Origin: Terebella lapidaria
Lineage: Eukaryota; Annelida; Polychaeta; Terebellida; Terebellidae
Assembly: GCA_949152475.1 (NCBI GenBank)
Contig: OX424570.1
Span: 23,928,694-23,992,693 of the forward strand
Length of the DNA: 64,000 nt
Reading direction: 5' to 3'
In this document: one piece after another, positions 1-60,000 of the stretch
Layout of the letters: each line of letters begins with the position of its first letter
Numbering within the stretch: position 1 is the first letter of the stretch
Made by a program: the position numbers and the translations under genes
The notes under the pieces: generated by a model
Database searches by the model: none
What the model was told of the DNA's origin: nothing
The model's input: only the letters and a program-made list of their open reading frames with translations

Positions 1-2839
1 GTGTACTGTCTACCCACCATGTTCACACACTGTGTACTGTCTACCCACCATGTTCACACACTGCGTACTGTCCACCCTGTGATCACACACTGCGTACTGT
101 CTACTCACTGTGTCCACACACTGTGTACTGTCTACCCACTGTGTTCGCACACTGCGTACTGTCTACCCACTGTGTTCGCACACTGTGAACTGTCTACCCA
201 CCGTGTTCGCACACTATGTACTGTCTACCCACCATGTTTCCACACTATGTACTGTCTACCCACCATGTTTCCACACTGTGTACTGTCTACCCACCATATT
301 TGCACACTGTGTACTGTCTACCCACCGTGTTCGAACACTGCGTACTGTCTACCCACTGTATTCGCACACTGCGTACTGTCTACCCACTGTGTCCACACAC
401 TGTGTGCCGTGTACCCACCATGTTCGTACACTGTGAACTGATTACCCACCGTGTTCGTACACTGCTTACTGTCTACCCACTGTGTTCACACACTGTGTAC
501 TGTCTACCCACTGAGTTTGCACAATGTGTACTGTCTACCCACCGTGTTCGCACACTGCGTACTGTCTACTCACTGTTCTCGCACACTGCGTACTGTCTAC
601 CCACTGTGTCCTGTGTACCCACCATGTTCGCACACTGCTTACTGTCTACACACCGTGTTCGCACACTGCTTACTGTCCACATACTGTGTTCGCACACTGA
701 TTACTGTTAACCCACCGTGTTCGTAGACTGCGTACTGTCTACCCACTGTGTTCACACACTGTACTGTTTACCCACCGTGTTCGCACACTGAGTACTGTCT
801 ACCCACTGTGTTCCCACACTGTGTACTGTCTACCCACCGAGTTCGCACACTGCGTACTGTCTACCCACTGTGTTCACACACTGTGTACTGTCTACCCACT
901 GTGTTCGCACAATGTGTACTGTCTACCCACTGTGTTCGCACACTGTGTACTGTCTACCCACCATGTTTCCACAGTATGTACTGTCTACCCACCATGTTTC
1001 CACACTGTGTACTGTCTATCCACCATGTTCACACACTGTGTACTGTCTACCCATCATGTTCGCATACCCACTGTGTATTGTCTACCCACTGTGTTCACAC
1101 ACTGTGTACTGTCTACCCACTGTGTTCGCACACTGTGTACTGTCTACCCACCGTGTTCGCACACTGCGTACTGTCTACCCACTGTGTTCACACACTGCAT
1201 TCTGTCCACCCACCATGTTTGCACACTGTGTACTGTCTACCCACTGTGTTCGCACACTGTGTACTGTCTACCCACCGTGTTCGCACACTGTGTACTGTCT
1301 ACCCACTGTGTTCACACACTGCATTCTGTCCACCCACCATGTTCGCACACTGTGTACTGTCTACCCACCGAGTTCACCCACTGCGTACTGTATACCCACC
1401 GTGTTCGCACACTGCGTACTGTCTACCCACTGTGTTCACACATTGTGTACTATCTACCCACCGTGTTCGCACACTGCGAACTGCCTATACACCGTGTTCG
1501 TACACTGCGTACTGTCTACCCATCGTGTTCGCACACTGCGTACTGTCTACCCATCGTGTTCGCATACACACTGTGTATTGTCTACTCACTGTGTTCACAC
1601 ACTGTGAACTGTGTACCCACCATGTTTGCACACTGCGTACTCTCTACCCACTGTGTTCGTACAGTGGGTACTGTCTACCCACTGTGTTCGCACACTGTGT
1701 ACTGTCTACCCACCGTGTTCGCACACTGCGTACTGTCTACCCACTGTGTTCACACACTGCATTCTGTCCACCCACCATGTTTCCACACTGTGTACTGTCT
1801 ACCCACTGTGTTCACACACTGTGAACTGTGTACTGTCTACCCACCGAGTTCGCCCACTGCGTACTGTATACCCACTGTGTTCGCACACTGCGTACTGTCT
1901 ACCCACTGTGTTCACACATTGTGTACTGTCTACCCACTGTGTTCACACATTGTGTACTGTCTACCCACTGTGTTCGCACACTGTGTACTGTCTACCCACC
2001 GAGTTCGCCACTGCGTACTGTATACCCACTGTGTTCGCACACTGCATACTGTCTACCCACTGTGTTCACACATTGTGTACTGTCTACCCACTGTGTTCAC
2101 ACATTGTGTACTGTCTACCCACTGTGTTCGCACACTGTGTACTGTCTACCCACCGAGTTTGCCCACTGCGTACTGTATACCCACTGTGTTCGCACACTGC
2201 GTACTGTCTACCCACTGTGTTCACACATTGTGTACTGTCTACCCACTGTGTTCGCACACTGTGTACTGTCTACCCACCGAGTTCGTAGACTGCGAACTGT
2301 GTATACCCACTGTGTTCGCACACTGCGTACTGTCTACCCACCGTGTTCGCACACTGTGTACTGTCTACCCACTGTGTTCGCACACTGCGTACTGTCTACC
2401 CACCGTGTTCGCACACTGCGTACTGTCTACCCTATGTTCACACACTGTGTACTGTCTACCCACCGTGTCCGCACACTGCGTACTGTCTACCCACCGTGTT
2501 CGCACACGCGTACTGTCTACCCTGTGTTCACAGACTGTGTACTGTCTACCCATCATGTTCGCACACTGCGTACTGTCTACCCTGTGTTCACGCACTGTGT
2601 ACTGTCTACCCACCGTGTTCGCACACAGTGTACTGTCTACCCATCATGTTCGCACACTGCGTACTGTCTACCCTGTGTTCACACACTGTGTACTGTCTAC
2701 CCATCATGTTCGCACACTGTGTACTGTCTACCCACCGTGTTCGCACACTGCGTACTGTCTACCCACCGTGTTCGCACACTGTGTACTGTCTACCCGCCGT
2801 GTTCGCACACTGTGTACTGTCTACCCACCGTGTTTGCAC
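1..2839. repeat. 31-bp minisatellite, about 90 units, directly at the donor of exon e60
   Basis: The unit on the plus strand is close to 'ctgtgtactgtctaccc' plus 'accgtgttcgcaca', 31 bp in all, repeated head to tail from the window edge up to the last bases of e60. Units differ at a few positions (Cs and Ts, 'ttcgcac' versus 'ttcacac'), with occasional shortened units. All three plus frames stay open for long distances because the unit has no stop and 31 is not a multiple of three, so the apparent ORFs are not genes. On the transcript strand every unit carries 'CAGTGTGCGAACACGG', almost the same as the e60 exon end and donor. The array continues past base 1. Confidence 0.95.
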
Positions 2840-3004
2840 ACTGGAACTTGTTGGCAGGACAGTGTCGTCCGCCTGGATACCGCGTGGGACAGCTGGCCTC
2901 GTCAGAGAAGTCCTGGCAATCTTTGTCACCGTCGCATACGAACGCAGCATCGATACAGTGACTGCTGTTACAGCGGAATTGGTCTGACAAACATGGCCGA
3001 TCAA
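2840..3004 (-). CDS. LRP2: LRP2 exon e60: LA8 of cluster IV and start of LA9
   Basis: The exon encodes a full LA module with calcium motif '[13 protein letters not shown]', then '[17 protein letters not shown]', which resembles human LRP2 'CPTRFPDGAYC'. The acceptor is 'tttccag'. The donor is either GTGCAA (exon end 2840, phase 1) or GTGTGC (2842), and both lie at the very edge of the 31-bp minisatellite. The next exons are outside the window. Confidence 0.88.
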
Positions 3005-12000: not shown

Positions 12001-15000
12001 TTTTATCAGGCGACCACCAATCAAATAATGGCTGTTGGTGTTATAATTCAATGAATCCATCACATTTGTTCAAAATACATTGTAGTTTATTAAATAAGGT
12101 AAAGTTAAAGTTATCAGATTTGATATAGCGCTCTTTTCAGCCGAACTAAATCCGCTTTCAAAGGCGCTTTACACTTTAACCCCAGTCTGAGTGATTGTAC
12201 TTGGAGCTGCCACACTCAAAGCGCTCTATACAACACCCATTATCAACCGGTACCCATTTAATCCTGGGTGAAGATAGACACATTAGTGGTAAATGCCTTG
12301 CCTAAGGACACTAGTGAAATGGCACAGCAGTCCAGCTCGAGACTCGAACCCATGATCTTTGGATTACGAGTCCGACGCCTTACCCACTGCGCCACTCACT
12401 CCACAATAACACTGTACGCCAGATCAGCAAAATGTCTGTAGTTGTAGGCCTACATTGATGTTGTACCCGGCTGATACCGACCTTTTATCTGCCTTCGCGG
12501 GTGTACAAGGTGTATATCCATGGGTCTATGTGTGACATTTCTGAGGATCGTGTGGTTAGCGCTTGTGAATCTATTGGCTTTCTCGATGGCCAAGTGGTTC
12601 CAGTCCGACCAAAACATCCATTCTTCGAATATCGTGATGGCAAAAACATGAGCCAAAGTACCGCTCATCACAACTTTTATGTTGGAACCATCAAGATCGG
12701 AATACCTGATTTGCAGAAAAAAATGATACTTGTGAGGAATTAATCAATTGAAAACAAAAGCTGAGTTTAGGAAATTGACAAATTGTTCAAATGTAAGATA
12801 TCAAATCTTTCAATAAGATATGTCACTCTTAGATGCTGTGAAGGAAGATGTTGATTTTATTTAGAAATGTATTCACATGACAAAAAATTAGCCCAATGGG
12901 CTAGAAAGGTTACCGGAGAAATATACAGAGTTAAGCCGAGAAAGTTGAAGGTCAAATTCAAGGTGACCACTGAAATCGCCATATCTCTAACCTTGAAAAT
13001 GGGATCAAAGGTTAAATTCTAGATCACCAAACTATTCAGCATACATCATTTCCTATATGTTCACTATGGACCCCTAAGCTGTAAATTTGATAATAAGCGA
13101 GATATAAGCCATTTTGTAATCTGACTTTGAAAATAAAATGACTGACCTTGAAATTTAGGTCAAAGGTCAAATTCAATATCATTAAAATATTCAGAATATA
13201 TCATTTCCTATATGTTCACAATTGATTCCTAAGCTGTAAAGTCGATAATGAGCGAGATGATAGCCATTTTGTCCTGTTGACCTTGAAAATGAGGTCAAAA
13301 GTCAAATTCAAGGTCACTAGAATATTCAGCATATATCATTTCCTATATGTTCACAATCAATTCCTAAGCTGTAAAGTCGCTAATAAGCAAGATATTGGCC
13401 ATTTTGTCCTGTGACCTTGAAAATGAGTTCAAAGCTCAAATTCAAGGCCACGAGAATATTCAGAATATATCATTTCCTATATGTTCACAATTGATTCCTA
13501 AGCTGTAAAGTCGATAATAAGCGAGATATTAGCAATTTTGTCCTGCGACCTTGGAAATGAGGTCAAAGGTCAAATTCAAGGTTAGAAAATATTCAGCATA
13601 TATCATTTCCTATATGTTCACAATTGATTCCTAAACTGTAAAGTCGATAATAAGCGAGATATTAGCCATTTTGTCATGTGACCTTGAAAATGAGGTCAAA
13701 GGTCAAATTCAAGGTCACAAGAATATTCAGCATATATCATTTCCTATATGTTCACAACTGATTCCTAAGCTGTAAAGTCGATAATAAGCGAGATATTAGC
13801 CATTTTGTCCTGTGACCTTGAAAATGAGGTCAAAAGTCAAATTCAAGGTCACGAGAATATTCAGCATATATCATTTCCTATATGTCCACAATTCATTCCT
13901 AGTCTCTAATTTCAATATTAAGTGAGATATTAGGCTTAATGTGTCCCATTATAAAGCATAGGAAAATTTAACATGGGAAAGTCACATTTGGGCCGAGTTT
14001 GGGCCCAAAATGGCCCACTTCAAGCGATTCAAACGCAACGAAATTTATACATGTCACAGGGGTACATATGTGGAGTGTTTTTCATCAATAAGAAAAAAAA
14101 GTTACTGAACAGATTTTTAGAAAACGACCGTCGAAGTCCAAAATTGGCCATTTTTCGACGAAAACGGCCGCTCTGACCTTGAAACCAAGGTCAGAGGTCA
14201 AATTCAAGGTCACGACAATATTCAGCATATATCATTTCCTATATGTCCACAATTGATTCCTAGTCTCTAATTTCAATATTAAGTGAGATATTAGGCTTTA
14301 ATGTGTCCCATTATAAAGCATAGGAGAATTTAACATGGGAAAGTCCCATTTGGGCCGAGTTTGGGCCCAAAATGGCCCACTTCGAGCGATTCAAGCGCAA
14401 CGAAATTTATACATGTCACAGGGGTACATATGAGGAGTGTTATGCATCAATAAAAAAAATGTTACTGAACAGATTTTGAGAAAATGGCCGCCAAAGTCCA
14501 AAATCAGGCATTTTTCGTCGAAAACGGCCGCCATTTTGAAAAAAATGCGAAAATCAAAAAACTTAAAAATACCTCCCTCTCGAAATATTTTTAGGCATTT
14601 TTGTGCAAAATTTCAGAAAAATTTGATCGTAAACTTTAAAGATAAAATTGTTGACGGACGACGACGGACGACGACGGACGACGACGCCGGACGCATCGCC
14701 GTGCCAATAGGTTACGGACCATAGGTCCGGTAACCTAAAAAGGTAATATTTTCATCTCCTATCCTCATAGTTTCTGTTATATTTGTTCAAACTTTCAAGC
14801 ACTTACGCAATGTAATCTAAGTGAGCATCTGCCCACCAGACCTTATCAATAACGTAGTCGATCGTTAAAGCGTTAGGCCAGGAGAGTTTCTCGGTTTGTA
14901 TTTTTGTGACCTGTGACCCGTCGAGTCCACATCGACCGATGTATGGGGAAGGTAGACCCCAGTCCGTCCAAAACAGGTACCTGTAGACAGAATCGGCTGG

Positions 15001-18000
15001 AATTACTGGAAGTTCTAAAGCAGATACACAAGAAAGTAATTAAGGGATACACAATACATGTGCAAGCCAATAAATCAAATAATTTGGAACAAAAGCAACT
15101 GTGCATTGTCAATTCCACTGAGGAAAACACTCGCCTTTGTATCAATGATAAGAATTTGATAGATTTCACTTCACTGTCATGTGAAAATTGCTTTATTATT
15201 TGAAGCAATCCAATATGATTTGTTTGATTTGCAAATTTTTCTAACAAGATTTGAAAGCTGTCATATCAGCATCCATGCTATATTTTTTTAGAAGAAAGTG
15301 AACCTTATAAACAGTGTCTTACCCCTTCGCTGGGTGGGCAGCCAAAGCTCTAGGCTTGCTGAGTCCGTCAGAGATGAGAGTCTTGCGAGACGTTCCATTC
15401 ATCTCCGAAACGTAAATCTCATTGTTTCGGTCATCAGCCCAATACAGTTTCCTGTTGATGAAATTATAAATGCCATACTGATATGGGTTATTGGGTCGCA
15501 TCACCCATGCATTTTACTCCCACAAGAACTTGACCTAAACCTTGCCCCACCCCCTCCCCCCCCCCCCCCCCCCACCTCCCCTTCATACCGAGCGATCCAA
15601 TCCACAGCGAGCCCCTCGCCTGCGGGCATGTTGTGCCAAATTAGAGTCTCAAGCTCTGTCCCATTGAAATACATCCGCTGCAGTTTGCGGCTCCCGACGT
15701 CTATCAGATAAATCCGCTCCTCCTGCAAGTCCACGTCCAGAGCCACGACATTTTGGAAGCCTTGTCGGACCAGTTCATAGTACTGGCCGTCCACTGACAG
15801 CTTGCGGATGTAGTAGTTGTTGGTGAAGAGCAGCCATGGCTCGTTGCCTGCAAGAGTTATTTGTATTGTAGATATAAATATATATTACTAATTGAATGCT
15901 GCGTATATTGATATTTACCTAGCTGTATAAATTTGAAATAATGGTCTTAATTTCATTTATTTTACCAACACAATCAAACGATATAAAGGCTGATTTTTGC
16001 TTTGCCAATTAATTATCTATAGCGTTTACAGTATTATGAAGTAAAGATACCACATTCAACATATGTTGCTCTGCTGAGCTTCTCACATCTAAAACAACAC
16101 ATACATTGAAATCATTTTTTCCCAACCGATATATTGTGCCTAAGCAACATCAAAACAGCCATGCTAAAATTGGGTGATTTTAAAGTTGGTTCCAACTTCA
16201 AATACCAAAATAGCCACGGGTCAATTTATCAGTGGTGACTCATTATTGAACTTTGGCATCACTGCTAGGCCCCATTGCATTGGCTACTCCTTCACAAGAT
16301 ATTCTGATTTGTTTTACAATAGACTTGAGATGATCAGTCCTCCTCTGTCTATTCAAGGTTTTTCCGTGCGGGAAACTCACTATCGGTTGATCGACAGACA
16401 TTGCTTCCCTGCGAAAAACTCACTATCGGTTGATCGACAGACATTGCTCCCCGCGGATCGCTGATATCCGTCAGCACACTTGCAGATGTAGCTCCCTTGT
16501 GTGTTCTCACAAAACTGAGAACACGCACCTGTCTGCTCCGTACACTCGTCTATATCTGTTGCCATGGAAACCAGGAAATGGTTTTGAATTATCATGCTTT
16601 CAGATACGTGAGATCAGCTTCAGAAACGTTATAAAGTGTAATATTTAATATTTCTCGCTATAATCATCAAAATATAATATATAGCAAATTTTACGATTAT
16701 ATTTTTTTTCCACATCATCTCAAAATCATAAATTTAATATATGATTTTAGATGACTGAGAGTGACCCGTTCGGTGATCACACTGTTTCAACTTACCCCTG
16801 CACCAATGTCTGTTAGAAGTGAGCGTGTAGCCTTCGTTACAAGTACAGTAATAACTGTCTATAGTGTCCACACAGTTGTGTTCGCAGAAATTGTACGCTT
16901 GCGAATATGAATATGAATATGAGGAGGGTGATGTGTCGCACTCGTTCACGTCTGCAACACAAATAGCAACTAGACGTCAAGGCCTGAAGATGCCTTGGGG
17001 CATTCCGTGTGAGTTCTATTCCTAGCTAACATATACCTAAGAGACCGTGTCTAGAACCATGATGACTCTGAAACTGTCCGTGGTCAAAGTTTAAGTGACA
17101 TACCCCGCCCTTAGGCATCTTTGCGTTTCGCTCTACGATGCACCGTTTCCCGAGATACGGCAAGCAGGAAGTGCTGAGTCGATGAAAAAAAATTCGACAC
17201 CAGAAGTCTTCTCGACCCAAGATACCCTCTAGACTAGTTAGTCTAGTGCCAGGAGGCCGAAATTAAGCTCCGTTTCGCTCCACGACGCACCGTTTCCGAG
17301 ATACGGTCAAACAGGAAGTGCCGAGTCGGCAAAAAAAAATTCGACACCAGCGGTCGTTTCGACCCAAAATACCCCCTAGACTATTTGTCTAGTGCCAGGA
17401 GGCCGAAATTGAGCTCCGTTTCGCTCTACGACGCACCGTTTCCAAGATACGGCCAAACAGGAAGTGCCGAGTCGGCAAAAAAAAATTCGACACCAGGGGT
17501 CGTTTCAACCCAAGATACCCTCTAGACTAGTTTGTCTAGTGCCAGGAGGCCGAAATTGAGCTCCGTTTCGCTCTACGACGCACCGTTTCCGAGATATGCA
17601 TGAAAGCCTCAAGGATGAATCAGCAAAAATTCTTTCGAGCTCTAGGTCAGAGGTCGTTCGACGGACTGATCCCAAAATCAATAGGGTTCTTCCCTGGTGG
17701 TATATGAACTCCCATGCATAGAATACTTGCCATTGCATGAATACTTTTTGAGTTATCGATCGGAAACCAAGTCTCAAAATAAACCTTGATTTCATCCTCA
17801 CTGACCCCGGAGCCGCCTCCGAAACAATAGGGGTCTTCCATGTAATATTTCTGACCAGTGGTGTAAATTTGGACAAGATCCGTTCAGGCGTTCCCGAGTT
17901 ATTGATCAGAAACCAAAATGGCGGAAAGTAAAAAAAAAAGAAGAAAAAGAAAAAAACCAAAAAAAAAAAAACCAGACAAAACCATAAGGGCATTTCGGGC

Positions 18001-27000: not shown

Positions 27001-30000
27001 AATGTTACGTGATATGTTTAATCGGTCGAAAGACTGTTTATTTGCTGAACTACTTTGTGGTCAGGGTGGTTTCTCCGTTTTCATCAAAAAGCTACCAAAA
27101 CGATCATAACTATTAAAATGTCAAATTAATTTAAATCAAAATTTCCGAAGCGAAAACAAGCATCTACCGGAATACTTACATATGGAAGTCGGTCCTGGTA
27201 TATCTCTCGAGGTTTTCGTGTTCAAGTTGTAGATGGATATGTTGTTTCGGATGTGAAAATACACAAGTTTATTTGCATAGTCTGCCGTCATGCTGCTCAC
27301 TTCACCTCGTGGGAAGAACGTCTGGCTGGACGAAAGGTTCTGTCCTATACCGACACTGTCCACCTTATTACCAATATTGACGAGCAACTGATCTGGTAAA
27401 TCTACAAAGTGAATGACAAGGAAGGATTTTTTTTCAAAATTCCTCCAGCAAAACAATAGTTGTAATCAATTTGACTTTCAACTTTCAAATTTAAACCATC
27501 TAAAAAACAGCAATGAGTTTCTACTATGTCAACTGAGTTGTAGATCCAGATTTTAGCTAATTTTAACTAGAATTAACTTGAATTTCCATACCAGTAATTT
27601 TTCTTCAAAATTTAGAAAAAAAATTCCATTTTCATCAAGCATTATTATTATTAAGCCTTACCTTGGCACATGTATCCAGTGCTGTCCAGTACGCCGTAGG
27701 TACACACACAGACAGGCGTGTTCCTGGCAGGGTACGCGACGCAGATATCACTGCAGCCACCGTTTGCCGTGACACATGGGTTGTGCAAAACTGTGAGATG
27801 TATAACAACAAAATATCATTCACAGTACCTCAAACTAAGCTGATTCCAGTGACTTTCTGCTAATTTCTTGTTTAGCGAATATTTCAGAATAAGTGAATCA
27901 AATGTAGGACTTACATGTTTGCTCAATGTAAGTGTTGATTTTTGAAAGGATAAATTTAAAAAATTAGCCCAATGGGCTAGTAAGGTTACCGGAGAAATAT
28001 ACAGAGTTAAGCCGAGAAAGTTGAAAGTCAAATTCAAGGTGACCACTGAAATCGCCATATCTCTAACCGTGAAAATGGGATCAAAGGTTAAATTCTAGAT
28101 CACCAAACTATTCAGCATACATCATTTCCTATATGTTCACTATGGACCCCTAAGCTGTAAATTTGATAATAAGCGAGATATAAGCCATTTTGCAATCTGA
28201 CTTTGAAAATAAAATGACTGACCTTGAAATTTAGGTCAAAGGTCAAATTCAATATCATTAAAATATTCAGAATATATCATTTCCTATATGTTCACAATTG
28301 ATTCCTAAGCTGTAAAGCCGATAATAAGCAAGATATTAGCCATTTTGTCCTGTTGACCTTGAAAATGAGGTCAAAGGTCAAATTCAAGGTCATGAGAATT
28401 TTCAGCATATATCATTTCCTATATGTTCACAATTAATTCCTAAGCTGTAAAGTCGCTAATAAGCAAGATATTGGCCATTTTGTCCTGTGACCTTGAAAAT
28501 AGGTCAAAGGTCAAATTCAAGGTCACGAGCATTTTCAGCATATATCATTTCCTATATGTTCACAATTGATTCCTAAGCTGTAAAGTCGCTAATAAGCAAG
28601 ATATTGGCCATTTTGTCCTGTGACCTTGAAAATAGGTCAAAGGTCAAATTCAAGGTCATGAGCATTTTCAGCATATATCATTTCCTAAATGTTCACAATT
28701 GATTCCTAAGCTGTAAAGTCGCTAATAAGCAAGATATTGGCCATTTTGTCCTCTGACCTTGAAAATAGGTCAAAGGTCAAATTCAAGGTCATGAGCATTT
28801 TCAGCATATATCATTTCCTATATGTTCACAATTGATTCCTAAGCTGTAAAATCGCTAATAAGCAAGATATTGGCCATTTTGTCCTGTGACCTTGAAAATG
28901 AGGTCAAAGGTCAAATTCAAGGTCACGAGAATATTCAGCATATATGATTTCCCATATGTTCACAATTGATTCCTAAGCTGTAAAGTCGATAATAAGCGAG
29001 ATATCAGCAATTTTGTCCTGTGACCTTGGAAATGAGGTCAAAGGTCAAATTCAAGGTCATGAGAATATTCTGCGTATATCATTTCCTATATGTTCACAAT
29101 TGATTCCTAAGCTGTAAAGTCGATAATAAGCGAGATCTTAGCCATTTTGTCATGTGACCTTCAAAATGAGGTCAAAGGTCAAATTCAAGGTCATGAGAAT
29201 TTTCAGCATATATCATTTCCTATATGTTCACAATTGATTTCTAAGCTGTTAAGTCGCTGATAAGCAAGATATTGGCCATTTTGTCCTGTGACCTTGAAAA
29301 TGAGGTCAAAGGTCAAATTCAAGGTCACGAGAATTCTCAGCATATATCATTTCCTATATGTTCACAATTGATTCCTAAGCTGTAAAGTCGCTAATAAGCA
29401 AGATATTGGCCAATTTGTCCTGTAACCTTGAAAATGAGGTCAAAGGTCAAATTCAAGGTCATGAGAATATTCAGCATATATCATTTCCTATATGTTCACA
29501 ATTGATTCCTAAGCTGTAAAGTCGATAATAAGCGAGATATTAGCAATTTTGTCCTGTGACCTTGGAAATGAGGTCAGGGTCAAATTCAAGGTCATGAAAA
29601 TATTCAGCATATATCATTTCCTATATGTTCACAAGTGATTCCTAAACTGTAAAGTCGATAATAAGTGAGATATTAGCCATTTTGTCCTGTGACCTTGAAA
29701 ATGAGGTCAAAGGTCAAATTCAAGGTCATGACAATAATCTGCATATATCATTTCCTATATGTTCATAATTGATTGCTAAGCTGTAAAGTCGATAACAAGC
29801 GAGATATTAGCCATTTTGTCCTGTGACCTTGAAAATGAGGTCGAAGGTCAAATTCAAGGTCATCAGAATATTCAGCATATATCATTTCCTATATGTCCAC
29901 AATTGATTCCTAAGCTGTAGAGTCGATAATAAGTGAGATATAAGCCATTTTGTGCTCTGACCTTGAAACTGAGGTCAGAGGTCAAATTCAAGGTCACGAG

Positions 30001-33000
30001 AATATTCAGAATATATCATTTCCTATATGTCCACAATTGATTCCTAAGCTGTAGAGTCGATAATAAGCGAGATATAAGCCATTTTGTGCTCTGACCTTGA
30101 AAGTGAGGTCAGAGGTCAAATTCAAGGTCACGAGAATATTCAGCATATATCATTTCCTATAGGTCCACAATTGATTCCTAGTCTCTAATCTCAATATCAA
30201 GTGAGATATTAGGCATAATGTGTCCCATTATAAAGCATAGGAGAATTTAACATGGGAAAGTCCCATTTGAGCCGAGTTTGGGCCAAAATGGCCCACTTCG
30301 AGCGATTCAAGCGCAACGAAATTTATGGACATCATAGGAGTACATATAAGGAGTGTTATTTATCAAAAAGAAAAATTAGGCCAAGGGCCAAAGATAGGTT
30401 ACCGGACAATGTTTAATATTTTAGATGTTAGCCAGGTCACTGGTTAAAGTCAAGGTCAAAAGAATATTCAGCATATATATAATATTAAGCATGTATCATG
30501 TCCACAGTTGATTGCTAAGCTGTAAATTCAAAACAGAGAGATATTAGCAATTTTGTGCTATGGCCTTGAAAATGAAGGCAAAAGGTCAAATTCAAGGTCA
30601 TCGAAATATTCAGTGTATATCACTTTCTATATGTCCACAATTGATTCCCAAGCCATACAGTCAATAGAGGAGCAAGATATGAGCCAGTTTGTACTTGGAC
30701 CTTGAAAATGAGGTCAGAGGTCAAATTCAAGGTCACGAGAATATTCAGCATATATCATTTCCTATATGTCCACAATTGATTCCTAAGCTGTAAAATCTAT
30801 AAGTGAGATATTAGCCACTTTGTCCTGTGACCTTGAAAATGAGGTCAAAGGTCAAATTCAAGGTCACGACAATAATTTGCATATATCATTTCCTATATGT
30901 TCAGAACTGATTCGTAAGCCGTAAAGTCGATGACAAGCGAGATATTAGCTATTTTGTCCTATGACCTTGAAAATGGGGTCAAAGGTCAAATTTAAGGTTA
31001 TCAGAATAATCAGCATATATCATTTCCTATATGTCCACAATTGATACCTAAGATGTAGAGTCGATAATAAGCGAGATATAAGCCATTTTGTCCTATGACC
31101 TTGAAAATGGGGTCAAAGGTCAAATTCATGGTCATCAGAATATTTAGCATATATCATTTCCTATATGTCCACAATTGATTCCTAAGCTGTAGAGTCAATA
31201 ATAAGCAAGATATAAGCCAATTTGTGCTCTGACCTTGAAACTGAGGTCAGAGGTCAAATTCAAGGTCACGAGAATATTCAGGATATATCATTTCCTATAT
31301 GTCCACAAATGATTCCTAGTCTCTAATCTCAATATTAAGTGAGATATTAGGCATAATGTGTCCCATTATGAGGCATAGGAGAATTTAACATGGGAAAGTC
31401 CCATTTGGGCCGAGTTTGGGCCAAAATGGCCCACTTCGAGCGATTCAAGCGCAACGAAATTTATAGACATCATAGAAGTACATATGAAGAGTGTTATGTA
31501 TCAAAAAGAAAAAAAGTTACTGAACAGATTTTGAGAATATGGCCGCCAAAGTCCAAAATCAGGCATTTTTCGTCGAAAACGGCCGCCATTTTGAAAAAAA
31601 TGCGAAAATCAAAAAACTAAAAAATACCTCCTTCTTGAATTATTTTTAAGTATTTTTGTGCAAAATTTCAGAAAAATTTGCCCATAAACAAAAAAGATAA
31701 AAATGTGGACGACGACGACGACGACGGACGCAACGCCATGCCAATAGGTTATCGGACCATAGGTCCGGTAACCTAAAAAAGTTACTGAACAGATTTTGAG
31801 AAAGTGGCCGCCAAAGTCCAAAATCAGGCATTTTTCGTCGAAAATGGCCGCCATTTTGAAAAAAATGCGAAAATAAAAAAACTAAAAAATACCCCCTTCT
31901 TGAATTATTTTTAAGTATTTTTGTGCAAAATTTCAGAAAAATTCGCACGGACGACGGACGCAACGCCATGCCAATAGGTTATCGGACCATAGGTCCGGTA
32001 ACCTAAAAATAATCAAGTATATCGGGTTAAAGATAATATTCTGCACTACAATGTAGTTGATATCATTCAGTTGTGTTGGATGATTCCTTTTGACTTCGAA
32101 TTGATTATAAACCATGCTCTGTTATCTACCTCAAAATTGAATAAATAAAATGGGATACTAGTCAGGATGCTCAATAGCAAAAAAATTACATGCAATATTT
32201 CCAAACATTTGTGCATTTTCGATATAATGACCTGAAGGTTGTATAGAGATGTCGAACACCGCCATGTCTCCAACGTTGTCTAAGTTCTGTCGGAACACTT
32301 CGGGAGCGCCGTTTGACTGTAAGTTTAGTTTCAGGATCTGTTGGAATGAAGAAATATTTCCTCAACATCAGGAGTTTAGCGTCAGAAACTCATAAGAAAA
32401 TAACCTGAATCAGACACCGATTTTTTATTATCTATTTGATAATTCATATCATATCTATTTTATATGAATGTATAATGGAATTAAATTTCATATATGAGGA
32501 TACTGTTATAAAGAAAACTTTCCTAAACAGGAAGGTATAGAATCATAAGTTTTGTAAATGATTATCAATTGGTGTGCAACACTGACCTGTTTTAGACTTC
32601 TATCGCCCCAGTACAATGTGCTGCCGAAAATTGCGAGACCCGTCACCATCGGCAGATTGCTGCGTATGACCTGCCGATTCCCTCCAGTGTACGAGATTTT
32701 CTGTATGGAACAAAAACTTCAATTTATCGTGAAACCATGAAATTAGGACATTTGTATGTTCACTGCATCCAACATTATTGTATAGAAAGTGAGTATACAT
32801 GTACATATGTTCAAATTTGGACAAATTACCAAAAATCATAATTTTTTCGAACACACATCTATCTATCTATACTATTAACACGGTGGGTAAACAAATCATA
32901 ACGTTCGGGCATATTTAATGGATTATCTGGCTGAAACATAAATATATATAATTCCTGCATGGTTCATCCAGACCACACTATTATTCCACAAATTATCAAA

Positions 33001-36000
33001 TGGACAATATTGATTCTAATTGAAAACGTTGCGAACAACAAATGAAATAGCTCTGTTCTCAGTATTTTGTCTTTATCTTTCAATATGTCTATTATCACAT
33101 CAATTTTTGTCCCACCTCTGGGAGATATATCCTAATCAACAAATCAGCATGTTCTACAATTTATCAACTAGAATATGCCCGAACTTTATGATTCGCTTAC
33201 CCAGCGTGCACATATTTTCGATTATTTTCAAAACTTGCACATAAATCGTAATCATTTGATGGAAAGAAGTTCATGAAAGGAATAAATCCACAGATTATGA
33301 ATCCTTGAAAATACAGGTAATTTCAGCAATTTTTTTTGTTTATTAGCTTTGAAATATTTTATTGATCTCAGATTATTTGTTTTTGTTAGTCACAGGAAAA
33401 ACCAAACTGCTCAAAGTGATAATTGAGACATTCCTATTCCAATACATTCATGGGATATGTATGATATTTTTACCAATAACGATAACATCTCCAACCTGTA
33501 TGGAGTCGACGAGGGTGTCCGCCCAGTAGACATCACCAGTTGCGTGATCGACGACCATTGCTGACACACGACTTACACCCGAGCTCACCACAAGCGTCTG
33601 GTTTGTTCCGTCCGGTAACGCCTTGACAATACCTCTCTGCTCGATCGCCCAGTACACGTATCTGCAAGCATTGAAATATGGTTGTGCTTCTTTATGACAT
33701 GACTTCATAGATATAATAATACTACTACTTATAATAATGATATAATTTAGTTTATATCCAAGTTTTCCAGAACTGAACTGTAAGTTCAATCACAGTGACA
33801 AAGATGTTATGAACATGCAAAAATTAAACGAATTCAATTCACATGATATACAGGGCGTGCATATATCAAGCCATGGAACAACTCTACTTTATAGCAAAAA
33901 TTAGATGATCCTTCAAAATTTAACCTGTGACTTAAATTATTAAATACATGTGCACATAAACAAAACAACACAGACTGGATCCTGTGAATTTTATCATTCA
34001 ATTAACTGAACAATGACAGTGCACAATACCAGAGGAAATTCAAAAATAGCTCATCATAATCCTTCTAAAGATTTCAAGTACCAAGTCACGTGAACAGGTA
34101 ACACCGAGTAAAATACATACCTGCGTAAAGGACTGACCACGATTAATTTGATAGCAGAGTGTGGGAATAGCTCTGGCGAAACAATGATTTTCTTTTCATA
34201 TTGATCACCGCCGCATATCTCGATATAATTGTTCGTACTCATTGAAGTTATAATGGTATAGAGGAGTCCTAAACAAAAACAAAACAAGACAAATCAGGAT
34301 TATTTATGTTTTCGTGGATTATAGGCTTGAAACAGAATCATTCGAAAATTCACATGTACTGTTAGAAACTGTTATCTAAATACCTAATGACATGAATGTT
34401 ATATGCTGAGACAATGACTGTACACACTATAAAACAGATAAGTAATACCGAATTTACAAAACACAAGGCATGACTACCCATACACTATATATATGATATA
34501 CTGATACATGTATGCAAACTCATAACTGAATTAAATCCAGTGCAAAATCCACCATAAATGGATGAGTAAACACTACATTTAAGAGGGTCAGGACGTGAAA
34601 AATGACCACAACAAACCTGTGATCCAGTCCAAGCTTATTGCCACGGTCCAGTGCATGGAATTGTCAGCGACTAAACTTTCCGGGTGCTGACCATGCTGCT
34701 CCACACTGAAAACTCCGAAGTTGCCGAGGCTTGTTGGGCCGGCTCGTGTCTGCGCCCAGTAGATCTTCTGGCTGCTCAAGTGCACCTCGACGTCTGTGAT
34801 AGCGGCGCCTAGGGACCATAAAATCACATTTAGTCGATCTTTGATTGAGTGAAATCAAGGGAAGGCACGCTGAGATTTTGTCCACTTCACCTGTCAACAA
34901 ACCCTACTAGACTTGAAATGTATCAATGCCCAGTGAAGGTAATCTGTTGTATATTGAAATGACTTGTGCAGCTTAACAGGGTTCGGGGTTCAGAAATATG
35001 TAATGGCAGGGAGGTATAACAATTATGCATAACACTAATTCCCCTTCAAAATAAATTTCTGTAGATTCAGGTTTGATAAGATTGATATTTAAACCTCATG
35101 TATTTAAAAGTTGTTATATCAAAGATTATTTCCCAGTATTTCATGATTCTTGAAGACCATGTGTTGCATATGATATGATTGGTGGTTAAGTTTGATGTCT
35201 TTGGTTATGATCAATGTTACCATGGATACATTAACCTCCAGTAGAGATCGGGGCCATAGCCTCATCCTGAGAGCTGTTACCATGGTTACACTTACCTCCA
35301 GTAGAGACCGGGGCCATAGCCTCATCCTGAGAGCTGTTACCATGGTTACACTTACCTCCAGTAGAGAACGGGGCCATAGCCTCATCCTGAGAGCCGTTAC
35401 CATGGTTACACTTACCTCCAGTAGAGACCGGGGCCATAGCCTCATCCTGAGAGCCGTTACCATGGTTACACTTACCTCCAGTAGAGACCGGAGCCATAGC
35501 CTCATCCTGAGAGCTGTTACCATGGTTACACTTACCTCCAGTAGAGACCGGGGCCATAGCCTCATCCTGAGAGCTGTTACCATGGTTACACTTACCTCCA
35601 GTAGAGACCGGGGCCATAGCCTCATCCTGAGAGCTGTTACCATGGTTACACTTACCTCCAGTAGAGACCGGGGCCATAGCCTCATCCTGAGAGCTGTTAC
35701 CATGGTTACACTTACCTCCAGTAGAGACCGGGGCCATAGCCTCATCCTGAGAGCTGTTACCATGGTTACACTTACCTCCAGTAGAGACCGGGGCCATAGC
35801 CTCATCCTGAGAGCCGTCCAGAGCGAATGCTCGCAGAACTGTGTCCTGGCTTACAGTCAGCATCGTAGTCACCGCTGAAAAACAAGTTCTTCACAAGGTT
35901 AATCCAAAATACACAAACTTTTTTCGGACAGAATGGATTTATTATTCATCACACATAAGTGCATTTTTTAAGTTTTCAAATTTAACTTGAAGTAGATATA

Positions 36001-39000
36001 TTTCAAATCTGATCTGACTTCTATATTTACTAACATCATACCTTATGAATTTATAATACATGTATATACATATGCAAAATTCTCGTATAAAACAATCACG
36101 GTTTTATCATTAAGTGACGAAAAAAAATATATTATAGAGATTGGGACCATGACAGACAGATGTACACACGTGAACACGTAGTCTGGTCGGTGTTTAGCTT
36201 GTAGCCGGTGGAGCACGCACATGCCCTTCGTCCTGGTCCCTGTGTCAAACACAGCTGCTGGCAACCGCCGTTGACCGACTGGCACAGATTCGGAGCACCT
36301 AGGAATGACACTGATGTGCATTTCAACGATTCTGCATGTCGCTTATTCTTTTTGCACAATATGCTATAATTATTTAGACTGTACATGTACAATTGTACAT
36401 TGGGAATTGTGGAGATCGATTGAATAAATTACACTGAAGTCCATTTGTTGGCAACAGCGGCAAACAGCCTACCAAAATTTTAATAATATTCAAAAGTATA
36501 GAAAGAATATTTATTCAGTGAAAGTGATGCATCATTTTTGAAGGAGAAAGATTGATACCCTTCAGATACCTCCCCCCCCCCCCCCCTCTAGAAAGACATT
36601 TTCAGTTTACCATGTAAATGAACCCCTCTAATAAGACTCCTCTCAGGCAAAACCTTAATTTTGTGGCAGAAAGGTAGGCGTTATTTGAAAGGGACCACTG
36701 TATATCGTAAAATACAGAACACAGCCACTCAGATTGCATACCTCCTACGTGTCTGTTGGTGAATACTCTCAGGATTTCAACCCTAGGAGCATTCGTCAAT
36801 ATGGCGGTGGAATTCCCCGTGGCGAGATCATAGCGATATACTGCCTGGTAACCGCGATCAGAGTAGTATAGCGTACCGTTGCCAGCGGCAACACCAAACG
36901 GAGTAAATGACGTGATACTGATGGTAGATTTCGTCCCTGTACGTATGTCAAATTTCATGATCTGAAAAAAAGAAATGTACTAATTGAAACTATCTTGAAC
37001 ATTTTTGTGTGTATGTATGTGTCTATTGTAGACACAAATTACTAAGAAATATTGGAAAAAAATTTATAAGAAAGTATAAATATAAGAAAGCTCATACTAT
37101 GAACATAATGATGACATACATGTAATAGTGTTTCTTTTTTCCTATTAGTTCCATTCCTTAAATCAACTATCAATTAACAATTCACCTGCCGAGCAATTTG
37201 ATTTTGAAACTTCCAAATTCCCTCATTTAATACATCTCTCCCCATATAACAACGGACCTGCTGCACGTATTCTTCAGTCCAATACAATATCTGCGCTTGC
37301 TCGTCACACGTGATCTGAACGAGACGGCTGAGGTTGTCTTGCACGAGTATCTGAGGATTTGTGCCATCCAGATCAATCGAGGCCAGTTTCCTTGGGATAC
37401 TGCTTTTTCCATTGTCCAGCCAGAATAATTTTCTGGAAAATTGATAAATGTTGCCACTTTAGGACTAGGCCAATTAAGTTAAAATGTGCCAATTTCTGCA
37501 CTGGATTTTCTTTTACTTTTTTATTTTCGAGCAGATCAATGCTCTGGTTGAAAACCCATGATTGATATAATTACAAAATTCCACTACTACGTCACACAGT
37601 ATTATCCACGAACATACCCAATTGAAGGCATTAAACAAGCAGATATTGGTGATCCCACTGCCTGCGCTGCACCCGAATCCGTCAGCCACGTTTTCCGGTG
37701 AAAGTTCGTGCCCGTAACTTGCATCACGCCAACAGTCGAAGGCTTCTCACTCAGCCAATACAGGTTTTTTGCCGTCCAATCAAAAGCAATGGCTTTTATC
37801 GTTCCGAAGTAAGCATTTGGCGCGACTTCAGATTGGTTTTGGGAAGTCAAGCTTATTTGGTGTATCGACGTCTGCAAGTGAAAACAAAAAGAACGAATTG
37901 GGTATATGGAAACATGTCTAATTGTAGGTGAACTACACAATTATCAGTGTTATTTGTCACCATATGCCTAGTTCCAAATCAACATGAGACTTGAAAATTA
38001 TCAGCATCTAGTTTGTCAGTAAATATAAACATTTATAGTAATGAACATAATTGAAATAAAAATGTTTTATCAAGATGCTTAATCCACCCAGTAAAGGTCT
38101 CGAAATTCATGGTAGCCTAAATCTGATACGATTCCAACTGCGCAAGTTTAATTCAGCTTCTTGACAATGGTCACCTTAGTCTCGAAACTCTCCAATGGTG
38201 ATCTCGCAGCAATCTGAAATAAAAATAACACATTGTCTCAATATACAACTTATTGAGTATAGGCCAGGTATATTACATAACCAGTGCAGTTTGCTTCCAT
38301 GTAAAGGTGGTCTCAGACTTTTTGTCACCAAACAAGATAAGATTGTCGACCCTATACCTATCACACGAATACAGCTACAAACCCTTTGAGTTTGGACGGA
38401 AAAGATCGTTTTTGCATCACTGTCGTAATCAAAATCTTGTAGAGTTGTGCTCAGCCCGATATTCGGCCCAACGTTATCCACGACTTTCGAACTCTGTGCA
38501 CCAGAAAACGGCATGGCCCCTATCATCAACCTCGTCTTTAGCAACAAGTAACCAGCGGTGTCTGAAAGTTGTTGAGAAAGGATTAACACAAAATGCATGT
38601 CTCAAGAACTATGCAGAAAAGATGATCAATTTCCCTGCTATGAATTCGGATAACCTGTTAGATGAATGATTCATACATTTATAATGTACATAATACATAC
38701 AACACATCAAATAGAATTTGGTGTTGTGAATTGAACAGACGATTTCAGACTTGTGGGATATTATAGTGAACAATATCAAACATTTCTACGAGTACCAAAG
38801 CTGGATTTCACCAAGATTGATATGTTCGTTCAGAAATGCTGATAATTCTGGGAGTTACTTCAAACTGGTTTAACATTGGCCACAAATTTCAGAATGCTTG
38901 GGGGTTGCTGTTTTTTCTAACTTTTGGATGATAGAAACACAAACCTGTTGAGATACAGTTGTGCCGGGATGCATCTAGAACCATGCGCGGCGGGCAGATA

Positions 39001-51000: not shown

Positions 51001-54000
51001 TCCCATTGAGTTCCATGTGTGGCGGGCAGAAGCATGTCGCTCCGAAGGCTGTATCGAGGCAATAATGACTGCAGCCGTAGCTGCCTGCACCGCAAAAATC
51101 CGTGTCTGAAAACAGCGGTTTTCATAGAATCAATGGGTCACTTGGGTAGAAATTAAACAGAAATATATTTTTTCATGGGTACAAAAAAGTTACACTAGCT
51201 CTCCCAAGTTTTTTTTATCAGTTCAATTCATTACTTGATAACACTAGACGTCAAGGCCTAAAGATGCCTTGGAGGCATTTCGGTGTGATGATTAATTTAT
51301 AATATATACTAGATATCGACGAAAATGAAAAATGTCGACTCCGCAAAAAAATTTACCGTTAAAATAATACCCCTTAGACATGTTTGTCTAGGCCGACGAG
51401 TCCGAAAAAAAAGTCCGTTTCGCTCTACGACTCACCGTTTCCGAGATATCGACGAAAACGAGAAATGCCGACTCGGCAAAAAAATTTCGGGTCAAGGTCA
51501 AAGTTCATCCATAATACCCCTTAGACATGTTTGTCTAGGGCGACGAGTCCGAAAATAACGTCCGTTTCGCTCTACGACACACCGTTCCCGAGATATCGAC
51601 GAAAACGAGAAATGCCGACTCGGAAAAAAAATTTGGGGTCAAGGTCAAAGTCCATTCATAATACCCCTTAGACATGTTTGTCTAGGGCACCGAGTCCGAA
51701 AATAACGTCCGTTTCGCTCTACGACACACCGTTCCCGAGATATCGACGAAAACGAAAAATGCCGATTCGGCAAAAAAATTTCGGGTCAAGGTCAAAGTCC
51801 ATCCATAATACCCCTTAGACATGTTTGTCTAGGGCGACGAGTCCGAAAATAACGTCCGTTTCGCTCTACGACACACCGTTTCCGAGATATCGACGAAAAC
51901 GAAAAATGCCGACTCGGCCAAAAAAATTCGTGTCAAGGTCAAAGTTCATCCATAATACCCTTAAGACATGTTTGTCTAGGGCGACGAGTCCGAAAATAAC
52001 GTCCGTTTCGCTCTACGAAGCACCGTTTCCGAGATATCGACGAAAACGAAAAATGCCGACTCGGCAAAAAAATTTCGGGTCAAGGTCAAAAAGTTCATCA
52101 ATAATACCCCTTAGACATGTTTGTCTAGGGCGACGAGTCCGAAAATAACGTCCGTTTCACTCTACGACGCACCGTTTCCGATATATCGACGAAAACGAAA
52201 AATACCGACTCGGCAAAAAAATTTCGGGTCAAGGTCAAAGTTCATTCATAATACCCCTTAGGCATGTTTGTCTAGGGCGACGAGTCCGAAAATAACGTCC
52301 GTTTCGCTCTACGAAGCACCGTTTCCGAGATATCGACGAAAACGAAAAATGCCGACTCGGCAAAAAAATTTCGGGTCAAGGTCAAAGTTCATCCATAATA
52401 CCCCTTAGGCATGTTTGTCTAGGGCGACGAGTCCGAAAATAACGTCCGTTTCGCTCTACGACACACCGTTCCCGAGATATCGACGAAAACGAAAAATGCC
52501 GACTCGGCAAAAAAATTTGGGGTCAAGGTCAAAGTTCATCCATAATACCCCTTAGACATGTTTGTCTAGGGCGACGAGTCCGAAAATAACGTCCGTTTCG
52601 CTCTACGACGCACCGTTTCCGATATATCGACGAAAACGAAAAATGCCGACTTGGCAAAAAAATTTCGGGTCAAGGTCAAAGTTCATCCATAATACCCCTT
52701 AGGCACCTATTCTGAGATATCGATGAAAACGAAAAATGCCGACTCGGCAAAAAAATTTCGGGTCAAGGTCAAAGTTCATCCATAATACCCCTTACGCATG
52801 TTTGTCTAGGGCGACGAGTCCGAAAATAACGTCCGTTTCGCTCTACGACACACCGTTCCCGAGATATCGACGAAAACGAAAAATGCCGACTCAGCAAAAA
52901 ATTATTTCGACCTCTAAGTCAAAGGTCATTTGACGTATCGATCCCAAAATCAATAGGGTTCTTCCCTGTTGATATATAAACCTCCGTGCAAAATTCTGCA
53001 ACTATTGCCTGAATATTTTTCGAGTTATCGTCCGGAAACCAAGTTTCAAGATCAGCCTCGATTTCATCCTCAAGGACCTCACGGACCTCGGAGCCGGATC
53101 AAAAAAAATAATACACCCTAGAGATGTTTGTCTAGGGCGACGAGTCCGAAAATAACGTCCGTTTCGCTCTACGATGCACGGTTTCTGAGATATGCAGGAA
53201 GCCTCAAGGATGAATCAGCAAAAAATTATTTCGACCTCTAGGTCAAAGGTCGTTTGACGGATCGATCCCAAAATCAATAGGGTTCTTCCCTAGTGGAATA
53301 TGAACCTCCATGCAGAGTTCTGCAACTATTGCGTAAATATTTTTCCAGTTATCGTCCGGAAACCAAGTCTCAAAATTAGCCTTGATTTCATCCTCACGGA
53401 CCTCACGGACCTCGGATCCGGCTCAAAAAGAATAGGGTTCTTCCACATATCATTTCTGACTTGTGGTGAAAATTTGACTAGAATCATTCAAGGCAATCTA
53501 AAGTTATCGTCCGGAAACCAAAAGTGGCGGAAGAAGAAAAAAAAAAAAAAAAAAAAAAAATTCTGCTAAAACCATAAAGGCATTTCTGCCGAAATGCCTT
53601 AATAATGTGGATAATACATATTATGCTGAATATAGAAAGTAGAAATACTTAGACCACTGGAAATGAGACGACTCAAGTAACTATTTCTCAAATCAACCAG
53701 TTCAGAATTAGAATTGATTATTTTACAATGACACCAATTTTGTACAACCACCCAATCATATAATGGAGCAATGGCCACCTCATATCCTCGCGTGAATCAC
53801 TGAATGTTCTCCAGAAATGAAGGCATACTAACTACAAAGAGGCCCCTCGTCATCCCCCGACGGGCAGTCAGAGCGCCCATCGCAAACCATCGTGTTGTTG
53901 ATGCAAACTTGATACGATCCCGAGCATTTATACTGGTTCCACGCGCAGCTGAATGGAATCGGAGCTGCAAGAAATAGATAAACAATCATAACATCATTTG

Positions 54001-57000: not shown

Positions 57001-60000
57001 TGGAGGGAGGGGATTGGAGATAAAACCATGTCAACTAATGGTATAGTTACGTCTGTTTGTTGGTAAATTTAACAAATATACTTTGAAATTGAAAATCTCA
57101 AATTCGTGTGTATGGATCCAACATTTTTTATTACCAGATAAGTGTTGGTAACTTCACATTTGACTCATTGAACATCAGTGTGAATTCAATCTTGAATTTG
57201 TGTATAATACTACATGTATATCTAATTTTTTGCACATCTTTGGTCTCTACAGTATAGAATAATGCCGTTATATAACACTGCTCAAATTCTAGGCATACAT
57301 GTCACACACAGGTAAACATATAGTTGAGATGTTACATTCACATATCACATAGTCAGCGACAAACCTCCGCAATTTTGCTCATCGGACATATCCCCGCAAT
57401 CGTTGTCTCCATCGCAAACGAATCCGTCGTTTATACAGCGCTCATTCGCGCACTGGAAATCGCCAGCGGGGCAGCCACTGACGACCGGCTCGTCAGGGTT
57501 TGGAATGCACGAGATCTGGTCGGACGTGTTGATCTTGAGTCCAAACGGACAGTGGCAGTGACGCAGGTCAGGGTGGACGGGGAAACAGAAGTGACTGCAG
57601 TGTCCGTTGTTACTGACACAGAGATGGTGTGGGGCTGGAAATTACAATATTCATGAAGAGTAAATTTAGGAGATTGAATCTGTTTTGCTCGATGACAAAT
57701 TAACAATTTTAAATGGATTCATGAGACTTGCATGTATTTGGTTGGTCAAGGTTCAACTTTCTCTCTAAGATTTATGAAGATTGGTCCTTGCATTTTTGAA
57801 AGTCAAGTTTCAACATGTTCAAAAGAACTAGTGTCGAATGACAACAAATAAACCATTACATAGATAATGATTCGGAAACTTCTGAACAAGTTGGCACTTC
57901 CCAGACAATGTCACAAAATGTCTTGGACAATCATTCAATGAGTCCTGAAAACACCCATTATACTATTGGACATTCGGTATCATCCATTGTTTTCCCCTGA
58001 CATGGCCTTGACATTGCTCAAATTGCTGATTGTTCAGACAGCTCAAATAAGGTGTGTAGCTCATCAATCCTACTGATCTAACGAAACTCTGTGCATCGTT
58101 TGTACTCTCGCATTTCAGGCATTGTTAGAAATGGAGTCAGATAATGAAGGTTTTCGGAATGTGAGCTATGTTTTTGTTAAGTCAATTTTGCTGAGTTGCT
58201 GAGATGACGCACGGCACTTTGCGAAATGTCAAGGCCAAGTTAGGGGAAAAACAATGCCAGGGCGAAAATACCAAATAATACAATGCGTGTATATATCCAA
58301 TCAGTATCACATACCTGGCTCCTGGGACCTTGTGGTGAACACTCGAAGTCCGTTGAGTCGTGTGGATCGGCTTTTCCAGAGCAGGTGAGTGTCCCGAGTG
58401 GTCGTGTTGAGTCGGATGACACCTTCTGCCTTCCAGTCGGAGTAGTAGAGATTATGTCCAAAAATGTCCAGACCGTACGGGTGAATTTCCCTCTGCATAT
58501 TCAGTGTTTGCACGTCAGTTCCATCGAAACTAGAGTGCTGGAACCTGACAGAAAATTGTGCTATGTATTGGAATTATGTGTTCATAATTCAAAATATGGC
58601 TTGCATGGACATATAAGTTTGTCATATGTCATAAGTTTGTCATAACAGATTGTCACATTTTCATATACAACAACCATTATTTATTATGATTAATTTTATA
58701 ATATACCTTTTATAACATACCGTGAAACTAAATCTTCAAACTAAACTTTTCAAATGACATTGATTACAAATAAATGATAAGATATCACAAATTTGTTTCA
58801 TCTAGACACTCTGACAGACCTGTTATGATAGGCATCACACCACCACAACCGCTCCCTGCGCAAGTCTATGGTCAGCCCATTGGGCCAGCCTAGTCCACTG
58901 CTCCTGATGTAAACTACGTTTCCCCCGTCGCCATCAGCTCGGCCAATCCTGGGAACCTGCTCAGTGCTTTTTAGCCACTCCGTCCAGAATATCCATCTAT
59001 TTATGAACGAATCGAAATTTTCTTATTGGCCCCAGCTACTAGTATTTTGTTATTACAATGTATCAGAATATTTGTGACTCCATGACCACAAAACAATAGT
59101 ATTCTCATACCTAGTATATTAACTAGACGTCAAGGCCTAAAGATGCCTTGGAGGCATTTCGGTGTTAGGACTATTTCGTAATATTCAAAACATGTTTGCC
59201 ACGGGCTCTATGACACACCGTTTGCTAGATATTGACGAAAATGAAAAATGTCGACTCAGCGAAAAAAATTTCGACTCAAGGTCAAAGTTCATCCATCATA
59301 CCCCCCCCCCCCCCCCCAGGCATGTTTGTCTAGGTCGACGAGTCCAAAAATAACGTCCGTTTCCCTCTACGACGCACCGTTTCTGAGATATCGACGATAA
59401 CGAAAAATGCCTACTCGGCAAAAAAATTTCGGGTCAAAACCAAAGTTCATCCAAAATACATTTAAGACATGTTTGTCTAGGGCGACGAGTCCGAAAATAA
59501 CGTCCGCTTCGCTCTACGACACCCCGTTTCCAAGATATCGACGAAAACGAAAAATGCCGACTCGGCAAAAAAATTTCAGGTCAAGGTCAAAGTTCATCCA
59601 TAATAACTTTAAGACTGTTTGTCTAGGGCGAGGAGTCCGAAAATAACGTCCGTTTCGCTCTACGACTCACCGTTTCCGAGATATTGACGATAACGAAAAA
59701 TGCCTACTCGGCAAAAAAATTTCGGGTCAAGGTCAAAGTTCATCCTTAATACCTTTAAGACATGTTTGTCTAGGACAACGAGTCCGAAAATAACGTCCCT
59801 TTCGCTCTACGACCCACCGTTTCCGAGATATCGACGAAACAAGAAAATGCCGACTCGGCAAAAAAATTTCGGGTCAAGGTCAAAGTTCATCCATAATAAC
59901 TTTAAGACTGTTTGTCTAGGGCGAGGAGTCCGAAAATAACGTCCGTTTCGCTCTACGACTCACCGTTTCCAAGATATCGACGAAAACGAAAAAAGCCGAC

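Follow-up and report, generated by a model that had tools for sequence, protein, structure and literature searches.

Nine identical candidate splice donors in one open frame: a probable minisatellite across a predicted exon-intron boundary of an LRP2-like annelid gene

An LRP2-like gene of an annelid carries a tandem array of ten 60-bp units that begins in one of its exons and continues into the following intron. The same splice donor is present in nine of these units, and all nine copies are in frame with the next exon. The array is probably a boundary minisatellite that the gene tolerates through exon definition, with the donor proximal to the exon being chosen and minor in-frame isoforms possible. 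Below, we describe the array, its host gene and related arrays elsewhere in the genome, and weigh other explanations of the repeated donors.

Anatomy of the 60-bp array

The window analyzed is a stretch of 64,000 nucleotides (C17:23928694-23992693 of the assembly). TRF detected a single array at the locus (period 60, 10.0 copies, 98% matches and 0% indels), located at the boundary between predicted exon e25 and intron 25 (Table 1). On the minus strand, each unit consists of 39 nt of exon and 21 nt of intron, the latter starting with GTAAGTG. This agrees with the initial annotation, which had described a unit of about 40 exon bases, a donor and about 20 intron bases repeated tenfold. The tandem unit crosses the predicted exon-intron boundary, and the junction formed by the first donor agrees with LRP2.

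Several good donors are present in the array, the sequence GAG/GTAAGTG (the slash marks the splice junction) being identical in nine units. The minus strand of the window contains the word AGGTAAGT ten times, compared with about 1.4 occurrences expected from base composition, and nine of the ten are in the array at a spacing of exactly 60 bp; the earlier claim of nine equally strong donors 60 bp apart was thus correct. In a simple donor matrix, the donors of units 1-9 score 7.77, CAGGTAAGT scores 8.7 and unit 10 scores -0.33. As had also been noted, only the distal unit has lost its donor. In unit 10 (35236) it is replaced by GGTTAATG, and the changes at unit positions 42 and 44 both abolish the donor and create an in-frame TAA.

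Table 1. Positions of the arrays, donors and exons discussed in the text (window coordinates unless a locus is named)
Feature	Position	Strand	Basis or remark
Ten-unit 60-bp array across the e25/intron-25 boundary	35215..35814	-	TRF and unit-by-unit reading
Donor 1, GAG/GTAAGTG, last exon base 35776	35769..35778	-	Presumed default site
Donors 2-9, GAG/GTAAGTG, last exon bases 35716, 35656, 35596, 35536, 35476, 35416, 35356, 35296 (60-nt steps)	35289..35718	-	
Decayed unit-10 donor, GAG/GTTAATG; in-frame TAA at 35233-35231	35229..35238	-	
Exon e24 (predicted ends), EGF-like module upstream of propeller 5	36170..36298	-	FXa_inhibition, E 2.5e-11
Exon e25, 99 nt with donor 1, propeller 5 start	35776..35874	-	LRP2 matches
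Exon e26, acceptor CCCTAG/GCGCC, predicted donor CAG/GTTTGT, more of propeller 5	34617..34808	-	
Second LRP2 donor-spanning array, 31-bp units (L002)	1..2843, on to about -275	-	TRF and exon match
44-bp myosin-I array	L065 (C6:376250-383250); also L043, L028		
43-bp donor-spanning array and 26-bp acceptor repeat	L025 and L018		

Units 1-5 and 9 are identical, unit 6 differs by C23T and A60G, unit 7 by A60G, and unit 8 by G27T. Unit 10, which forms the far edge of the array, is the most diverged, with four changes (G27A, A42T, G44A and A49T). With this edge unit excluded, the inner units are homogenized. As reported for amphioxus, a far-edge unit that is the most changed is the usual sign of an internally homogenized array (PMC3087553). 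Unit 1 is preceded by GGACG, and AACG forms the end of units 6 and 7; these few bases would be compatible with an initial duplication that used the shared AC as its joint, followed by a spreading A/G change. The 654-bp stretch had one matching place in the 761.6-Mb assembly when searched by a method that ignores very frequent words.

An LRP2-like host gene

By its sequence matches, the host gene is LRP2-like. LDLa and EGF segments are found along the minus strand of the window, and Ldl_recept_b has five minus-strand matches in C17 23925278-23995050, three of which are inside the window. The peptide encoded by e25 (spliced at donor 1) and e26 matched four LRP2 sequences in PDB with E values of 1.8e-4 to 5.7e-4, followed by one unrelated chain (0.47). 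These LRP2 scores are modest alone, as they sum several weak stretches, the best of which (LRP2 2064-2157) has 12.8 bits and an E value of its own of 1.2; its alignment crosses the donor-1 e25/e26 junction without a gap. When the EGF exon was added, LRP2 sequences were the four best of 61 PDB matches (E 5.1e-45 to 3.4e-38), with LRP2 2020-2114 as the best stretch and LRP4 next (3e-26). Pfam identified FXa_inhibition in this longer peptide (2.5e-11), with EGF_LRP2 below the cut-off, and no family in the e25+e26 peptide alone. Among PDB sequences, LRP2 is the best match at corresponding domain positions, 2020-2157 and 3796-3917, in gene order.

Since the alignment of the donor-1/e26 join to vertebrate LRP2 is uninterrupted at the junction, donor 1 is likely the ancestral site. 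The LRP2 matches of the donor-1 product further indicate that e25 encodes the start of propeller 5 (numbered by our own count along LRP2) and that conservation is on the side of the shortest isoform; the assignment of the array to propeller 5 of LRP2, made in the initial annotation, is supported by the matches to 2020-2157. The predicted exon coordinates give lengths of 295 nt for intron 24 and 967 nt for intron 25, and the donor of e24 (CAC/GTGTGT) is weak. A crude exon finder applied to about 24-54.5 kb yielded two low-scoring candidates only and missed known exons. The LRP2 gene also contains 147-bp and 134-bp satellite arrays (7058-9154, 10392-11458, 13143-13933, 17124-17596, 28219-31354, 51364-52702 and 59321-60124), and the 147-bp kind is present in myosin loci L020 and L032 as well.

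Reading frame through the array

The frame of e25 is open across units 1-9, and splicing from donor k to e26 preserves the frame and adds 20(k-1) residues. As the nine intact donors precede the TAA of unit 10, each is still able to join e26 in frame, as had been proposed. The accompanying statement that no unit has a stop holds for units 1-9; it fails for unit 10, where the change in the donor makes the TAA. Each 20-residue read-through block contributes one additional Cys and one N-x-S sequon, nine Cys and nine sequons in all, in agreement with the earlier description of the blocks.

Does such a frame imply selection? One of the four donor arrays that we found has a period divisible by three; by chance, exactly one such array would be seen with a probability of 0.40, and one or more with a probability of 0.80. 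When the intron part was shuffled at the 60-bp period, 59% of the shuffles were free of stops, and the exon-like part of units 2-10 shows one silent and two residue-changing differences. Given these values, the open frame requires no selection, and the in-frame property of the LRP2 60-bp array fits with chance.

AlphaFold was run without an alignment on the read-through peptide (35234-35872, minus strand). The best of five models had a mean pLDDT of 73.3, a pTM of 0.71 and regular short strands, and the other four had pLDDT values from 65.7 to 52.5. Perfect repeats are known to give spurious solenoids in structure prediction; the model may be such an artefact and therefore carries no inference. 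Folding of the array RNA predicted donor 1 to be slightly less unpaired (0.33) than donors 2-9 (0.41-0.47), which is no clear difference by which RNA structure would explain donor choice.

Mitochondrial and apparently foreign contigs in the assembly

Contig C438 (15,973 bp) carries on one strand the order cox1-cox2-cox3-nad6-cob-atp6-(AT repeats)-nad5-nad4L-nad4-(rRNA region)-nad1-nad3-nad2, in which cox1 was identified by Pfam, the other genes were named from translations and the rRNA region was placed by the gap. No atp8 was seen in the translations of C438, and no tRNAs were detected with a bacterial search setting, an uninformative result. In the reported annelid pattern, nad6 and cob follow cox3, atp6 is located between cob and nad5, nad5 and nad4L/nad4 are interchanged, and nad3 lies between nad1 and nad2 (PMC2639372). 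Judged by this description, the gene order of C438 is the annelid one. This speaks against amphioxus, which the mirage minisatellites discussed below had suggested as a source; the GFP family also had no match in the assembly, a weak indication given that the control queries matched nothing either. A long TA-rich repeat is present at about 13170-13600 of C438 (L014), between atp6 and nad5, in the position of a control region. On several small contigs, among them C150, C186, C363, C235 and C369, the myosin, kinase and ABC genes contain TAA/TAG codons in frame and few TGA codons, a genetic code by which these contigs look ciliate. Another contig, C417 (61 kb), has a second, split COX1 with an internal TGA.

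Donor-spanning arrays elsewhere in the genome

A second array in LRP2 consists of about 100 31-bp units (81-86% matches) that occupy most of a 3,265-nt intron. Its first 13 nt are the end of an LDLa exon (ACG/GTGGGTAG, with 2829 as the final exon position), and its donors are partly lost, with 16 exact copies of ACACGGTGGGTAG and 69 of GGGTAGACAGTAC. Joining its donor 1 to the next exon (VCIPREW...) gives 122 residues that match 122 of LRP2 3796-3917, the top scorer among 21 stretches. Repeats related to this array were observed at C11:7119732-7120537 (69-78%) and C14:36203441-36204262 (65-66%).

The other arrays belong, in part only apparently, to a gene on C6 that, with its exons joined, gave matches to myosin-Ib, -Ic and -IE (best E 9.4e-48). 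A 44-bp unit with GGCAGCAT/GTGAGT is present there in 156.9 copies (97%) and covers nearly all of a myosin-I intron of approximately 6.9 kb, with 157 GTGAGT in a 7-kb stretch. The junction formed by its donor 1, EGIEWQH/VDYFNNK, aligns to myosin-Ib without gaps. Apparently in the same myosin-I gene, a 43-bp array (82% matches) starts at ...VIS G/ with TCAG/GTCAGAG, a core of which the locus has 20 exact copies; a near-copy of this donor 16 nt further on is likewise out of frame. This gene apparently also has a 26-bp three-copy repeat over an acceptor. As a possible further case, a 32-bp array of 14.5 copies occurs in the same C6 gene (L028 764-1212, L040 1914-2362); its unit contains a donor-like AAG/GTCAGT on the minus strand.

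Translation continued beyond donor 1 runs into a stop within unit 2 of both the 31-bp (TAG) and the 44-bp (TGA) arrays, and about two units on in frame 0 of the 43-bp array. Because periods of 31, 43 and 44 shift the frame and the read-through stops come early, sound LRP2 and myosin-I would need donor 1, assuming that the genes with these sister arrays are functional.

How common are such arrays? We surveyed 50 loci, excluded 11 that had TAA/TAG in their frames and were on small, foreign-looking contigs (L015, L016, L030 and L045-L052), and tested the remaining 39, counting separately L056 and L057, which look like mutual copies. Each match was inspected together with the 80 nt preceding it and the 120 nt following it, a range that misses arrays at remoter exon ends. 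An array over a splice site was present in 3 of these 39 loci taken as annelid, and all three apparently belong to one myosin-I gene; no boundary array was found in eight small LDL-receptor-b loci. The count leaves out L028, in which the 44-bp array is represented by its far end alone, and the two-copy repeats close to exons of L026 and L035. With 3 of 47 other loci positive, apparently all in one gene, recurrence refers to two genes only. Thus, donor-spanning arrays recur in this genome, in two genes so far, and are not general.

Which donor is used

We propose the following history for the LRP2 array. A short segment across the e25/intron-25 junction would first have been duplicated in tandem. 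Slippage or unequal exchange would then have expanded it to the present ten 60-bp units, which are nearly identical and include nine with a good donor. Unit 1 would be fixed by its coding sequence, and the remaining units would behave as intron. With e25 defined across the exon, the donor closest to its 3' splice site (35776) would most likely be used, the array would be spliced out and normal LRP2 protein made, and donors 2-9 would serve as backup or leak sites. Since 60 is a multiple of three and units 1-9 are free of stops, leakage to donors 2-9 would stay in frame and be retained as protein, in receptors with 20-160 extra residues at 20 residues per step, rather than lead to truncations.

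We think that donor 1 is the working site, based on the LRP2 and myosin matches, the frames of the sister arrays and reported minigenes. In these minigenes, when two identical CAG/guaagu sites were placed under exon definition, the upstream site was exclusively used (PMC9225289). The same report states that the upstream donor is favored in 60% of events involving human sites of near-equal strength, and that the downstream donor is favored, in about 60%, among unfiltered human events of all four intron classes; it cites an intron length of about 200-250 nt as the point at which intron definition gives way to exon definition (PMC9225289). A 99-nt e25 between introns of 295 and 967 nt has the layout for which upstream preference among equally strong sites was reported (PMC9225289). 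These donor-proximity rules derive from vertebrate minigenes and human data, and annelids may differ.

The initial annotation raised the possibility of a series of receptor isoforms. In one form of this reading, graded splicing from donors 1-9 yields LRP2 with 0-8 extra 20-residue blocks and the array is kept for these isoforms. The nine donors are indeed intact, identical and in frame, the frame is open into unit 10, and in human IFI6 two downstream units are reported to act as donors, with three mRNA species formed (PMC4526556). However, we consider this reading unlikely: the sister arrays, at 31, 43 and 44 bp, indicate that an in-frame period is not typical of this kind of array, most shuffles of the intron part are stop-free as well, and the exon-like part, although the numbers are tiny, shows no sign of constraint. 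In addition, an extra Cys in every block would be risky in a disulphide-rich receptor. Minor in-frame isoforms may occur, as may differences in array length between individuals, which the initial annotation also suggested; an isoform series as the likely main function is disfavored by the LRP2 match of the donor-1 product, the sister-array frames and the minigene and amphioxus precedents. It is more doubtful still that the gene encodes a length-tunable receptor. In that case, competition among the nine donors would provide LRP2 with 0-8 glycosylated blocks of 20 residues close to where propeller 5 begins, in a number that depends on the state of splicing and on how long the array is in a given animal, and minisatellites that multiply donors would repeatedly supply this genome with redundant splice sites and new protein sequence.

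An assembly or sequencing artefact, with a real copy number that is lower or one, appears very unlikely. Such an error might be suspected from the identity of six of ten units, and one amphioxus array was seemingly misassembled in a draft genome (PMC3087553), but units 6, 8 and 10 have private differences and units 6 and 7 have one in common, which simple stuttering is not expected to produce, and there are three further donor arrays of this sort. We give even less credence to a preference for 35296, the intact donor proximal to the intron, which would leave most receptors with about 160 extra residues. The classic intron-centered proximity rule and the downstream majority in unfiltered human events would predict it, but this rule is tied to intron definition, and both introns exceed the length at which the shift is placed (PMC9225289). 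The same behavior would also truncate the proteins of the sister arrays. Finally, units 1-9 each contain GTAACCATGGTAAC on the minus strand (35276-35769), close to an RFX X-box and one base off the symmetric consensus of that motif. GTNRCC-N0-3-RGYAAC matches the minus strand of the window 14 times and the plus strand three times, and nine of the minus-strand matches are in the array, but copying of one unit accounts for this count, and retention of the array for a DNA role as clustered candidate RFX binding sites is the least credible explanation.

Arrays of identical donors amount to experiments of nature in which the spliceosome has to select one of several equal sites. A single genome offers nine in-frame donors and an out-of-frame array of about 100 units in LRP2, together with 157 GTGAGT in a myosin intron of about 6.9 kb. 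Should donor 1 always win, this would be a striking case of exon definition outside vertebrates; should it not always be used, the LRP2 array would generate a graded isoform series.

Comparison with known systems

A minisatellite in human IFI6 was reportedly described by Turri in 1995, and Zhuo in 2007 is said to have described introns derived from internal tandem repeats in human genes. The IFI6 unit is 12 nt and adds 4 residues, versus 60 nt and 20 residues here. In IFI6 (also 6-16 or G1P3), a minisatellite likewise supplies several donors and two downstream units give rise to isoforms (PMC4526556); the genes are unrelated, and usage is known in IFI6, whereas the donors described here are predicted from sequence. 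Repeats at exon-intron boundaries are reported to be able to alter splicing, and boundary repeats derived from internal tandem duplication are described as giving rise to introns in duplicated human genes (PMC2812944). In those cases new introns formed inside repeats, whereas here the donor of an old intron was multiplied.

An earthworm metallothionein gene also has large minisatellite arrays in an annelid intron (intron 1), but exon sequence or donors within the repeats are not among the features described in the available text (PMC12783039). In a thin literature search we found no annelid donor-spanning array, and none is described there for the metallothionein repeats (PMC12783039).

The closest parallel is provided by the amphioxus "mirage" minisatellites, which cross exon-intron boundaries in Adh3 and in the globin genes BflGb6 and BflGb9 and for which RT-PCR is said to suggest that regular splicing is not interfered with (PMC3087553). 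They share with the array described here the boundary-spanning position and an edge unit that is the most diverged (PMC3087553). They differ in their cephalochordate host, the present one being an annelid by its mitochondrial gene order, and the annelid arrays have ten units, 157 in a sister array, and nine donors in one open frame. Boundary minisatellites, known from amphioxus, are extended to annelids. Their kind is already known; what is unusual here is the copy number, the recurrence in one genome and the presence of nine donors in one frame.
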